Source of the DNA: Micromonospora sp. NBC_01813
Lineage (GTDB): Bacteria > Actinomycetota > Actinomycetes > Mycobacteriales > Micromonosporaceae
Assembly (NCBI RefSeq): GCF_035917335.1
Contig: NZ_CP109067.1
Coordinates: forward strand, 3,037,001-3,101,000
Length of the DNA stretch: 64,000 nt
Direction: 5' to 3'
Under the pieces are notes generated by a model, which was not told the origin of the DNA, ran no database searches, and saw only the letters and a list, made by a program, of their open reading frames with translations. Both the position numbers and the translations under genes were made by a program. The stretch's first letter is position 1; every line of letters begins with the position of its first letter. This document shows positions 10,253-13,735 of the stretch, in pieces.

Positions 10253-12709
10253 GTGCACGACGAAAGCCCGCACCCGCACCCGACCGCCGGCGGCTTCCGC
10301 CTGGTGCGGCGGAATCCGCTGGTCGCCGGCGACGTCAGCTGGATGGAACTCTTCGTCGACCTGTTCTTCGTGTACGCCTTCCTCAAGGTCACCGACCTGA
10401 TGGCCGCCGACCCCACCGCGCTCGGCACGATCCGCGGGATTCTGGTGATCCTGCTGCTGTGGCACTGCTGGACGGCGTGCGTCTGGCTCGGCAACGTCAT
10501 CCACGTCGATCGCGGCGGCATGCCGCTGATCATGGCGGGCATCGCCGTCGTGCTGCTGGCCATCGGGGTCTCGGTGCCCGAGACGTTCGTCGACCGGCCC
10601 GGCAGCCTGTCCAGTCCGCTCATCGTGGTGATCGGCTACCTGGTGGTCCGGGTGAGCATCCTCGCGGTCCTCACCCGCGCCCGCTGGAACGAGGGACCCG
10701 CCGGGCGGCAGCCGGCGGCCATCGCGTGGCTGACGCTCGCCGGATCGGCACCGGTGCTGCTCACCGCCGCGCTGCTACCGACCTGGCTGCTGGACTGGCT
10801 GCCGGCAAGCTTCGACCCCGACCTGGTACGGCTCGGGCTGTTCGCCCTCGCACTGGCGATCGACTTCCTCATCCTGGCGGCGGTCGGCCGGGGAACCTGG
10901 CAGATGGTCTCGCCGTGGCACCTGACCGAACGGCACGCGCTCGTCGTCCTGATCGCCCTCGGGGAGACGATCATCTCGGTCGGCTCCGGCGGCGGTCCCG
11001 GCACCAACGTCCCGGCCACCTGGGCGCTGATCGCCGCCGCCGCACTGAGCATGGTCGTCGTCACCGTGCTCTGGTGGAGCTACTTCGACCTCGCGAAGAT
11101 CCTCGCCGAACACGCCCTGGCCCGCCTGCGCGGCGTCGACCAGACCAGGATGGGCCGCGACGCCTACAGCGGGCTGCACCTGCCGATGATCGGTGGCCTG
11201 ATCGTCCTCGCCCTCGGCCTCAAACAGGCGGTCGCGGTCACCTCCGACGGGTCCGAGCATCCCTGGGACGCGGCAAACGTGCTGACCCTCTACGCCGGCG
11301 TCCTGCTCTACCTGGTGGCGCTGGTCGGCTTCGAATGGCAGACGGTGCGACTGCTGGGCCGCAGCCCGCTCCTCGGCATCGCCCTGCTGCTGGGCGTACT
11401 CCCGCTGGCCAGCCGGCTGTCGGCGCTGGGCTCGCTGACGCTGCTGGCCGGCTGCCTCGTCGCGATGCTGATCGCCGACCGCACCGTGTTCCACCGCCGG
11501 CACCGGCACCTGCACCGGCTGGTCGAGTCCGACGCGTCCCGGCTGCACGGCGTCACCCCCCGGGAACTCTTCCTCGATCTGGTCTTCGTCTTCGCGTTCA
11601 TCCAGGTCACCTCGCTGATGACCCGGCAGACCTCACCGTTGGGCATCGTCCGGGGGTTGACCCTGCTCGCGCTGCTGTGGTGGTCCTGGACGTCGTACTC
11701 CTGGCTGACCAACGCCGTGCGGACCGAGACCATGCTGGTCCGGTTCACCACCACCGGGATCGCCACCTCGATCCTGGTGATCGGTATCGCCATCCCGCAT
11801 GCGTTCCAACCGTCACCCGGCAGCCTGCCCGGCTCGCTGCTCATCGTGGCCTGCTACCTCGCCGGGCAACTGCTGCAGACCGTCCTGCTGTGGCAGGCGT
11901 CGCGCGCGGATCCGGTGTTGGGCTCCCTCGCCAAGGAGAACGCGGTCCCGTCCACCGCCGCCATGCTGCTGCTCGTCGGCTTCGCGGTCGTCGAACTGGT
12001 GTCGCCGGACCGGCTGGCCCCGCTGCCGGCGGTGACGTTCCTGTGGGTCGCCGCGCTGGCCATCCAGTTCGTCGGCAGCTATCCGACCGGGGTACGCCGC
12101 TGGCGTCCCCGGTCGACCCGACACTGGGTGGACCGGTACGCGCTGATCCTGCTGATCGCGTTCGGTGAGGCGATCATCTCGGTCGGCCTGGCCGTCGACG
12201 GAAGTCCGATCACCGGCACCGTCATGGTGGTGGTCACCGTCGCCGCGACCGCGATCGGCCTGCTGTGGTGGGCGTACTTCACCACCATCGACTCGTCCCG
12301 CCTCGCGCTGGAGGCGAGGACCGGGGTCGACCGGGCCAAGCTGGCCCGCGACGCCTTCACCTACCTGCACCTGCCAATGATCGCCGGCATCGTCATGGTC
12401 GCGTACGGCCTGCATCAGGTCGTCGCCTCGCACGACGAGACCGCGATCAGGTACGGGCACTTCGCTGTCTACTGGGGAGTGGCGTTCTACCTGCTGGCCA
12501 ACCAGGTGTACTGGTGGCGGATCTGGCGCACGGTCAGCTGGTGGCGGATCGCCAGCGCGGTCGTGGTTGTCGGGCTGGCGTTTCCGACCGCCGCGCTGCC
12601 CGCCGTCTGGACGCTGCCGGCGCTCACCACCTTCGGTCTGGTCTGCGCCGCCGCCGAGTTGCGGCGCGGCGGTGATCCCCGCACCCACCAGCCCGGGTTG
12701 ACCGGCTGA
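10253..12709 (+). CDS. Tandemly duplicated low-temperature-requirement A (LtrA) membrane protein
   Basis: At 818 residues this is about twice the usual LtrA length (near 400). The family motif appears twice: WMELFVDLFFVYAFLKVTDLM near residue 30 and PRELFLDLVFVFAFIQVTSL near residue 432. ALGETIISVGSG near 235 is matched by AFGEAIISVGLA near 635. The constant offset of about 400 residues shows a head-to-tail duplication within one open frame. Each half has about ten to eleven helices. LtrA was named from a Listeria cold-growth mutant; its biochemical role is unknown. The GTG start at 10253 has no strong RBS. The gene stands alone after a terminator. Confidence 0.85.
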   Translation: MHDESPHPHPTAGGFRLVRRNPLVAGDVSWMELFVDLFFVYAFLKVTDLMAADPTALGTIRGILVILLLWHCWTACVWLGNVIHVDRGGMPLIMAGIAVVLLAIGVSVPETFVDRPGSLSSPLIVVIGYLVVRVSILAVLTRARWNEGPAGRQPAAIAWLTLAGSAPVLLTAALLPTWLLDWLPASFDPDLVRLGLFALALAIDFLILAAVGRGTWQMVSPWHLTERHALVVLIALGETIISVGSGGGPGTNVPATWALIAAAALSMVVVTVLWWSYFDLAKILAEHALARLRGVDQTRMGRDAYSGLHLPMIGGLIVLALGLKQAVAVTSDGSEHPWDAANVLTLYAGVLLYLVALVGFEWQTVRLLGRSPLLGIALLLGVLPLASRLSALGSLTLLAGCLVAMLIADRTVFHRRHRHLHRLVESDASRLHGVTPRELFLDLVFVFAFIQVTSLMTRQTSPLGIVRGLTLLALLWWSWTSYSWLTNAVRTETMLVRFTTTGIATSILVIGIAIPHAFQPSPGSLPGSLLIVACYLAGQLLQTVLLWQASRADPVLGSLAKENAVPSTAAMLLLVGFAVVELVSPDRLAPLPAVTFLWVAALAIQFVGSYPTGVRRWRPRSTRHWVDRYALILLIAFGEAIISVGLAVDGSPITGTVMVVVTVAATAIGLLWWAYFTTIDSSRLALEARTGVDRAKLARDAFTYLHLPMIAGIVMVAYGLHQVVASHDETAIRYGHFAVYWGVAFYLLANQVYWWRIWRTVSWWRIASAVVVVGLAFPTAALPAVWTLPALTTFGLVCAAAELRRGGDPRTHQPGLTG

Positions 12710-12784: not shown

Positions 12785-13087
12785 GTGATCATCGACTTCG
12801 ACGCCGAGCTGTGGCTCTGGGCGGCCCGACGGGGCGACAGTTGGACCTTTGTCAGCCTGCCGGCCGAGACGTCCGAGGAGATCCGGGAACTCACCGCCGG
12901 CACCCGCCGCGGCTTCGGCTCGGTCCGGGTCCAGGCGACCATCGGCGCGAGCTCGTGGACAACGTCGATCTTCCCGGACAGCGCCAAGGGCTGCTACGTA
13001 CTGCCGGTAAAGCGGGCGATCCGGGTGGCCGAGGACCTGCACCAGGGCGACCTCGTCGCCGTCACGGTCGAGTTGATCGCCAGCTGA
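12785..13087 (+). CDS. DUF1905-domain protein
   Basis: This 100-residue beta-rich protein starts at GTG 12785. The pattern FDAELWLW...WTFVSLPAETSEEIRELT...GFGSVRVQATIGASSWTTSIFPDSAKGCYVLPVKRAIRVAEDL matches DUF1905, small proteins of unknown function that are sometimes fused to YdeI-like domains. It lies 76 bp after the LtrA gene in the same direction, with the MerR promoter following. It may belong to the LtrA transcript. Confidence 0.75.
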   Translation: MIIDFDAELWLWAARRGDSWTFVSLPAETSEEIRELTAGTRRGFGSVRVQATIGASSWTTSIFPDSAKGCYVLPVKRAIRVAEDLHQGDLVAVTVELIAS

Positions 13088-13122: not shown

Positions 13123-13154
13123 TTGACCTTGGAGTGCGCTCCAAGGTCTACCGT
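13123..13154 (+). promoter_or_regulatory. MerR-type promoter with 10-bp-arm palindromic operator
   Basis: TTGACC (13123-13128) is the -35 element. The palindrome GACCTTGGAG-TGCG-CTCCAAGGTC fills 13125-13148. A weak -10 follows as TCTACC (13147-13152) or TACCGT (13149-13154), giving an 18-20-bp spacer. The long spacer filled by a dyad is the hallmark of MerR-activated promoters, where metal binding twists the DNA. Either -10 puts the RNA start within a few bases of the ATG at 13162, so the mRNA is predicted to be leaderless. Confidence 0.85.
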
Positions 13155-13161
13155 CGTCGCC

Positions 13162-13605
13162 ATGGCCACCGACATCGCCACCGACAGTCGCGGCGGCACC
13201 GGAATGCGGGTCGCCGAACTCGCCGCCGCCGTCGGGCTGTCGCCGGACACGATCCGCTACTACGAGCGGGCCGGGCTGCTGCCACCACCGGGGCGGACCG
13301 CCGCCGGATACCGGATGTACCAGTTCGACGCGGTGGACCGGCTGCGGTTCGTTCAGGGCTGCCAGCGACTCGGGCTACGGCTGCGGGAGATCGCCGACCT
13401 GCTCGCCGTACGCGACACGGGGGTGTGTCCGTGCGAGCCGGCCGAGCAGTTGCTGCGTCGCCGGATGGCGGAGGTCGACGCGGAGTTGGCCCGGTTGTCG
13501 GCGCTGCGGGCGGAGATGGCGGCGATGGCGGCGGCGTTGCCGTCGGCTGGCTGCCCGCCGCCGGAGCCGGGCCGCTGGTGCCCACCAGGTGACGAGGGGA
13601 GGTGA
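13162..13605 (+). CDS. MerR-family metal-responsive transcriptional regulator
   Basis: 147 residues from the ATG at 13162. The winged helix is MRVAELAAAVGLSPDTIRYYERAGLLPPPGRTAAGYRMY; the dimer helix is EPAEQLLRRRMAEVDAELARL. Three cysteine positions match metal-sensing MerR proteins: C89/C91 at the start of the dimer helix (GVCPCEP), and a C-terminal C131-x8-C140 loop (CPPPEPGRWC), the same spacing as the C-x8-C loop of MerR and ZntR. So it should bind a soft or transition metal (Hg, Zn, Cd or Pb class). SoxR-type and CueR-type spacings do not fit. No metal pump or reductase is adjacent; the only downstream partner is a cysteine-rich mini-protein. Confidence 0.88.
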   Translation: MATDIATDSRGGTGMRVAELAAAVGLSPDTIRYYERAGLLPPPGRTAAGYRMYQFDAVDRLRFVQGCQRLGLRLREIADLLAVRDTGVCPCEPAEQLLRRRMAEVDAELARLSALRAEMAAMAAALPSAGCPPPEPGRWCPPGDEGR

Positions 13606-13610
13606 TCACG

Positions 13611-13673
13611 ATGCTGGAGCCGACCACGCGCTGCGACTGCGAGCCGGACTGCTGCGGACCGGGCTGCTGCTGA
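13611..13673 (+). CDS. 20-residue cysteine-rich mini-protein (putative metal-binding peptide)
   Basis: The ATG at 13611 is preceded by GGGGAGG (13596-13602) with eight bases of spacing, one of the best ribosome sites in the region; the site overlaps the end of the MerR gene. The peptide is MLEPTTRCDCEPDCCGPGCC: 6 of 20 residues are cysteine, as CxC, CC and CC. The stop at 13671-13673 is followed 16 bp later by a terminator, so it would be the last gene of a two-gene metal operon. I infer a chelator or metal chaperone like a very short metallothionein. It is too short for ordinary gene callers, and I know no named family. Confidence 0.6.
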   Translation: MLEPTTRCDCEPDCCGPGCC

Positions 13674-13689
13674 CCCGCGCAACACCACC

Positions 13690-13722
13690 GTGGGTGCCGC
13701 CGAGCGCGCCGGCGACACCCAC
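13690..13722. terminator. Bidirectional terminator between MerR operon and cellulase gene
   Basis: GTGGGTG-C-CGCCG pairs with CGGCG-A-CACCCAC around a 7-base loop (12 paired bases, one internal mismatch). It lies between converging genes whose stops are at 13673 (+) and 13736 (-). Confidence 0.7.
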
Positions 13723-13735
13723 TGTGGGGACGGCG

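Follow-up and report, generated by a model that had tools for sequence, protein, structure and literature searches.

Small bacterial metallothioneins and compact units controlled by MerR-type regulators are the described systems closest to the locus presented here. In the account of PMC12193353 the metallothioneins SmtA and PmtA comprise 56 and 70 aa, respectively, and SmtA is paired with the repressor SmtB. In Pseudomonas aeruginosa the MerR-type sensor CadR induces Zrd, a small metallothionein-like protein encoded by a previously uncharacterised frame; Zrd consists of two zinc-ribbon domains, lies between two converging genes and is described as an addition to the CadR regulon (PMC12301328). 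A 'minimal autoregulated' unit of the MerR type is also described for TipAL/TipAS, where one gene gives both a sensor and an abundant ligand sink (PMC7762955), and in the Gram-positive mer operon, as presented in PMC12193353, merR is the first gene behind the operator. The layout of the locus analysed here is comparable to that of TipAL/TipAS, and its merR gene is likewise the first behind the operator. Leaderless short ORFs with poly-Cys stretches in mycobacteria are, going by the title of Canestrari et al. 2020, said to attenuate operonic genes.

The locus is located in a window (the whole stretch of DNA analysed, 64,000 nucleotides) which corresponds to positions 3037001–3101000 of the single 7.63-Mb contig of Micromonospora sp. 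NBC_01813. An earlier note, made from the letters of this DNA, had proposed a minimal sensor-chelator operon at this place.

Genetic organisation of the locus

The MerR-type promoter named in the earlier note was found on the forward strand at 13123–13154, with a -35 box (TTGACC, 13123–13128) and a -10 box (TACCGT, 13149–13154) separated by a spacer of 20 bp. Read directly from the sequence, the spacer is occupied by an operator dyad (13125–13148, no strand assigned) with 10-bp arms, GACCTTGGAG at 13125–13134 and CTCCAAGGTC at 13139–13148, a palindrome inside a 19–20-bp promoter spacer being characteristic of metal-sensing MerR regulators. The ATG of the regulator, at 13162, lies 39 nt from the beginning of the -35 box and, since transcription would start 7–8 nt after the -10 box, the start of the RNA is predicted at 13161–13162, i.e. 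at the ATG itself.

The gene for the MerR-type metal sensor, recognised by Pfam domains and alignments and predicted to be leaderless, occupies 13162–13605 on the forward strand (coding 13162–13602, stop 13603–13605) and encodes 147 aa. Its TGA stop codon is included in a 10-nt Shine-Dalgarno sequence, GGAGGTGATC (13598–13607, forward strand), in front of the Cys-rich micropeptide gene MLEPTTRCDCEPDCCGPGCC (13611–13673, forward strand, stop 13671–13673), and translation of the two frames is probably coupled. The peptide consists of 20 aa, six of them Cys, with an in-frame GTG at 13602 as an alternative start, and both the strong ribosome binding site and the frame are as the note had described them. 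No match to Pfam or NCBIfam was obtained for this peptide and none to Pfam for that of a related locus (L076), queries of 20–32 aa having little power in such searches, and an assignment to a known peptide family was rejected since no family model matched.

The hairpin that had been suggested to end the unit was found at 13690–13722 on the forward strand, between the operon and a convergent gene (-22.0 kcal/mol, z = -2.85, equalled by 2 of 200 shuffles); it is terminator-like in form and is not followed by a U-tract. For the longer stretch 13674–13735 the z-score is -2.07 and 5 of 200 shuffles were equally good. The convergent gene is the next long frame downstream and appears cellulase-like when its frame is read. 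Upstream of the unit a DUF1905 protein (12785–13087) ends 36 nt before the -35 box and is preceded by an LtrA-like gene (10253–12709), relatives of which were placed upstream of the module by clustering in three loci of the genus.

This order of elements bears on the idea that the Cys codons act as an attenuator responding to cysteine supply, as in the mycobacterial poly-Cys short ORFs. A Cys-rich short frame in an actinobacterium together with a leaderless mRNA would suit such a function, but the Cys frame is here the last one, is led by a Shine-Dalgarno sequence and is followed by the hairpin and the convergent gene, and therefore nothing is left downstream to attenuate; in the window no regulated genes lie behind the Cys frame. 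In addition, the leaderless frame is that of the regulator, and we regard an attenuator as extremely improbable.

The MerR-type regulator

The window MerR matches PF13411, PF00376 and PF09278 above the Pfam gathering scores and thereby contains both the helix-turn-helix and the MerR-DNA-bind domain. All four Cys claimed for the regulator in the earlier note (C89 and C91 in a C-P-C pair, and C131-x8-C140) are present in the 147-aa product. In alignments C91 coincides with a Cys of 5crl, 4ua1 and CadR and holds the position of the first metal ligand in the mercury sensor MerR (5crl) and in CadR; we take this to be the Cys located where the dimer helix starts (C82 in MerR, C79 in ZntR and C77 in CadR). 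In CueR-type copper sensors the place is taken by a Ser. Both C91 and the CPC pair are invariant among 32 aligned relatives (32/32), and so is C131 (32/32). C140 is kept in 27 and absent in five, four of which retain the peptide. As the HMMER alignments end before C131 and C140, that loop was matched by spacing only, its C-x8-C having the spacing of C117-C126 in MerR.

When run against the NCBIfam equivalogs, the regulator stayed below the curated cut-offs of MerR(Hg) (89.9 against 150.85 bits), CadR-PbrR (86.3 against 151.45), ZntR (75.9 against 167.95) and CueR (70.0 against 147.4), and these four named identities were thus rejected. One of the soft divalent ions Zn, Cd, Hg and Pb is weakly favoured as a guess for the metal sensed, because C91 aligns with the Cys of Hg and Cd sensors. 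A metal gene shared among the neighbours was also sought as a means of naming the metal, but clustering gave no neighbour cluster extending across families.

Occurrence and conservation of the peptide

At an E-value of 1e-36 the MerR was found in at least nine of 41 genomes, the own genome included, with at least five of the seven belonging to the genus. At this threshold it is present in at least 33 of 200 genomes of the family, at least 29 of 298 of the order and at least 6 of 394 of the class, and at 1e-30 in at least 38 of 396 genomes of the phylum, these counts being lower bounds as 10–20 candidates per genome were scored with an alignment. Since only 33 of 200 family members carry it at the threshold used, the regulator is dispensable.

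The species-genome scan gave 71 loci, of which 70 (L012–L081) were counted and L082 (34% identity) was left out. The search for short Cys-rich frames behind the regulator in relatives, which the earlier note had proposed as a check, was performed with a strict detector (Shine-Dalgarno sequence; start at -30 to +60 of the MerR stop; 10–45 aa; at least 4 and at least 15% Cys) and identified such a frame in 63 of the 70 MerR loci against none of 127 control gene ends taken from these loci, a stronger pattern than the note had claimed. Without the Shine-Dalgarno rule the frame was found in 66/70 loci, against 8 of 3500 mono-nucleotide-shuffled downstream stretches, and a looser rule (start at -60 to +140, up to 60 aa) likewise gave 66/70 against 0/127. 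With the looser rule the peptide also appeared in all nine loci of the relatives search, in 29 of 30 loci fetched from the family search (the exception, L165, is identical to L073) and in 14 of 30 fetched from the phylum search; the 16 remaining ones in the latter include three fusions (L084, L098, L103) and two longer Cys-rich frames (L097, L105).

The seven loci that escaped the strict rule were read by eye. Three (L034, L045, L051) contain the peptide with a weaker Shine-Dalgarno sequence, in L057 it overlaps a longer MerR frame, in L065 it forms an in-frame tail of MerR and in L073 it is degraded, having lost its stop, which leaves L044 as the one clear absence; 69 of the 70 loci thus hold the peptide, a fused tail or (L073) a degraded peptide. 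Altogether 128 unique modules were collected, among which the CPC[EG] type accounts for 113; the peptide is carried by 97 modules of that type, with L008 and L101 to be added. The species-scan loci with a peptide represent 22 named genera and conservation confined to close relatives was rejected on that ground. In two loci (L008 and L079) the MerR frame is broken while the Cys-rich micro-ORF behind it is still open.

Composition was analysed for 87 peptide loci, a few duplicates being kept. The peptides range from 12 to 32 aa (median 20; a single 40-aa reading comes from inside the longer frame of L100), with 11 aa as the shortest among the later loci, and contain 5–10 Cys (median 6), the overall composition being 33.7% Cys, 15.6% Asp and 10.3% Gly. 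Complementarity of at least 8 nt between the Shine-Dalgarno sequence and the 16S tail was observed in 75/87 loci and a GGTGA within 22 nt upstream of the peptide in 65/87.

In six codon-aligned clusters of about 20 codons, pN/pS was 0.50, 0.24, 0.40, 0.66, 0.71 and 0.39, and columns with a majority of Cys were 0.86–1.00 identical compared to 0.31–0.84 for other columns. Three of the four rows from the own genus begin, in these alignments, at in-frame codons further upstream. They supersede an earlier unaligned tally, in which one group had pN (0.246) above pS (0.220), and L005 and L056 were dropped from them as duplicates. Between clusters the peptides share little besides Cys, Asp and Gly. 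Being small, Cys-rich and little conserved outside the Cys columns, they have the general character of metallothioneins.

With only 20 codons and no family match, the short frame could be suspected to be an untranslated by-product of GC-rich sequence. Such an origin is hard to reconcile with the strict and the looser detector counts, with the shuffled stretches, with a pN/pS below 1 in all six clusters and with the conserved Shine-Dalgarno sequence, and has a negligible probability in our view; a chance frame was rejected by the control gene ends and the shuffles. Absence of conservation of the frame or of its ribosome binding site, which the earlier note had named as counting against its proposal, is accordingly not what was observed.

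In three deeper-branching loci (L091, L092, L094) two micro-ORF candidates each were noticed, one of the CPCCGCPCGDCGG type and one of a PCDC/CGPEC type. Longer Cys-rich proteins with CGCGC-like clusters follow a related MerR in L097, L100 and L105, and those of L097 and L105 include a helix-like stretch.

Promoter geometry and operator sites

The distance between promoter and start codon was compared in 109 peptide modules, both detector-found and hand-read, using a stricter -10 rule. In 93 of them the MerR frame has a start codon 38–40 nt from the beginning of the -35 box (38 nt in 58 cases, 39 nt in 33 and 40 nt in two), leaving 16 without the leaderless pattern by that rule. Under a laxer -10 rule the geometry was counted in 95 of 108 peptide modules (87 ATG, 8 GTG) against 2 of 18 without a peptide. 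Modules that lack the peptide can have the leaderless promoter too, which was seen by the stricter rule in 4 of 17 (L088, L089, L090, L104). Across 98 loci 17 to 53 aa separate the start from the RYYE motif, while in most modules the -35 box is 38–40 nt away; the start codon is therefore tied to the promoter and not to the protein, and the mRNA is predicted to start at the MerR ATG.

The self-contained nature of the unit, another point of the earlier note, is in line with the operator scan. When up to three mismatches were allowed, a single place in the own 7.6-Mb genome, this promoter, matched the operator pattern, but the result is at the edge of chance because a reversed control pattern also matched once at the same stringency. 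In 25 further genomes scanned with a similar pattern, the module's own promoter was among the matches in 23. Single extra sites with three mismatches were seen in three genomes (G436, G440, G441), one (G439) holds two modules, in G448 the only site lies at another MerR, and G449, where the module promoter has an extra base, gave no operator match. With few sites besides those of the modules themselves across the scanned genomes, a larger regulon was rejected. There is good support for the operon as such, for its conservation and for its near-isolation as a regulon.

Probable replacement of the peptide and its fusion to MerR

A plasmid search returned five records, three of which were opened. 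The Rhodococcus plasmid pGA1 harbours the module with the peptide MHDCCEDPMCPPELCGCGC, and the plasmid's gene table, which describes itself as incomplete, has no entry at the peptide position. In Streptomyces pFRL4 and in a Mycobacteroides plasmid, whose MerR is that of L044, no such peptide follows MerR; the same kind of operator, on the other strand, faces a divergent P-type ATPase. The corresponding loci (L138 and L139/L044) thus lack the peptide and have the operator directed at the ATPase.

The ATPase of L044 is of the heavy-metal type (NCBIfam TIGR01525, 562 bits) and passes both the Cd-family (465 against 313.5) and the Cu-family (417 against 397) models, so that the metal could not be named by this route, its kin carrying CSC. 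This motif was seen in the ATPases of L138 (3847–5856) and L139 (2860–4875), CPC being the usual motif, and both proteins have a short Cys-rich N-terminus (CGCDDAC and ECGGCGDSC, respectively). A literature search for CSC in place of CPC gave nothing useful.

The two ATPase-linked MerRs form a group in the phylogenetic tree (99/85), which is joined by a peptide-bearing neighbour (98/83) and falls within a larger group of peptide rows (100/92). The tree is midpoint-rooted, has few columns, leaves out L009, L079, L080, L082 and L101 and predates the peptide reading of L101 and the reading of L105. As the ATPase-linked MerRs nest among peptide rows, the peptide was probably replaced by the ATPase in that lineage, and the swap links the slot to metal handling on independent grounds. 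P-type ATPases are also found beside some members of a distant peptide-less clade (L109–L111), as in L044.

The other peptide-less loci are diverse. No operator was seen in L187, L191 and L195, another gene comes next in L089, and L088 has a frame of 19 aa with two Cys. In the two basal relatives L090 and L104 the slot behind the leaderless MerR contains a Thioredoxin_3-like gene (30.5 and 25.0 bits, gathering score 24.8), the product of which carries CPVC, CPDC and a CC pair.

Together with the invariant CPC pair, this gene invites the view that the unit senses thiol-reactive or redox stress (electrophiles, arsenicals or nitrosative agents), with the peptide as a sacrificial thiol or reductant. 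The alignment of C91 with metal ligands and the exchange for a heavy-metal P-type ATPase both point away from redox sensing, to which we attach a low probability.

In four rows (L065, L084, L098, L103) the MerR frame runs through the Shine-Dalgarno-like stretch and the ATG into the Cys-rich part. On the tree the fusion rows need four changes, and there are three or four fusion events, because L098 and L103 are close with the unfused L102 between them. As reported for TipAL/TipAS, a fused gene could yield a sensor with a tail as well as the peptide on its own, the likeness being one of analogy and not of descent.

A Cys tail on the sensor itself raises the question of whether the peptide is chiefly a regulatory partner that strips metal from MerR or delivers it, sets the threshold and serves as off-switch with little effect on bulk metal. 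Its very small size would agree with this, as would the operator being hardly found except before the module, the only evident output of the sensor being itself and the peptide. Yet an efflux ATPase taking the place of the peptide behind the same kind of operator fits an effector better, and the peptides of different clusters share little beyond the three residues mentioned above. A mainly regulatory role is for these reasons unlikely, while being the most plausible of the alternatives considered.

Putative function and comparison with known systems

We consider it probable that the locus is an autonomous metal-response operon in which a self-regulated MerR sensor is combined with a metallothionein-like sink, the role of the peptide as a chelator being inferred from its composition, its control and the ATPase swap. 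Apo-MerR would keep the promoter with its 20-bp spacer shut, and the promoter would be untwisted when C91, C131 and C140, together with C89, take up a thiophilic metal ion. From the resulting leaderless mRNA little MerR would be made, and, through the coupled strong Shine-Dalgarno sequence, much peptide, which may bind metal via about six thiolates and lower the free metal, and the lowered level would in turn reset MerR. The unit would thereby function as a gene-encoded minimal metallothionein under closed-loop control.

The sensor-chelator operon of the earlier note holds as far as the conserved frame, the Shine-Dalgarno sequence, the promoter geometry and the single operator site are concerned, but it is neither peculiar to the strain nor always built with a separate micropeptide: the unit occurs across Actinomycetota, and some loci have the Cys-rich part as a longer protein or as a C-terminal tail of MerR. 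On balance we lean towards the wider view that minimal metallothioneins, mostly of 11–32 aa, undescribed and widespread, form with a leaderless MerR a one-operon homeostat with its own sensor and sink as the only output, which has during evolution been exchanged for a metal-efflux ATPase or fused onto the sensor.

If so, gene-encoded peptides some 20 residues long would commonly buffer metal in parts of Actinomycetota. Such short frames are seldom called, and the micropeptides have probably been overlooked for that reason. The unit would also be an extremely small natural sensor-plus-sink circuit and a clear case of closed-loop control, yield metal-binding peptides and biosensors and allow a direct test of how the MerR switch is reset. 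The exchange of peptide and ATPase under one operator type makes sequestration and efflux directly comparable.

When searching open-licence papers, no description of a unit of leaderless MerR and Cys-micropeptide was found. SmtA, PmtA and MymT are, like the window peptide, gene-encoded and Cys-rich, and the metal-induced sink with a sensor that is described for them in PMC12193353 is proposed here by inference; SmtA and PmtA are longer than the median of 20 aa found here, and SmtB is a repressor while the MerR would be an activator (PMC12193353). Unlike curated bacterial metallothioneins, the window and L076 peptides have no Pfam match. Compared to CadR-Zrd as described in PMC12301328, sensor and peptide here adjoin behind one promoter. 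TipAL/TipAS binds thiopeptides via the TipAS domain (PMC7762955), for which the window MerR has no Pfam match, and the peptide of most modules here has a frame of its own, being an in-frame tail only in the four fused rows. In contrast to the Gram-positive mer operon, as outlined in PMC12193353, the unit contains no transport or reductase genes, is predicted to be leaderless and has a micropeptide in their place. With the mycobacterial poly-Cys short ORFs it shares Cys-rich short frames, leaderless mRNA and an origin in Actinomycetota, but its Cys frame comes last and is led by a Shine-Dalgarno sequence. Relative to the open-licence papers searched, what is new is the minimal, predicted leaderless form in which a putative metallothionein-like sink and a MerR sensor are combined.
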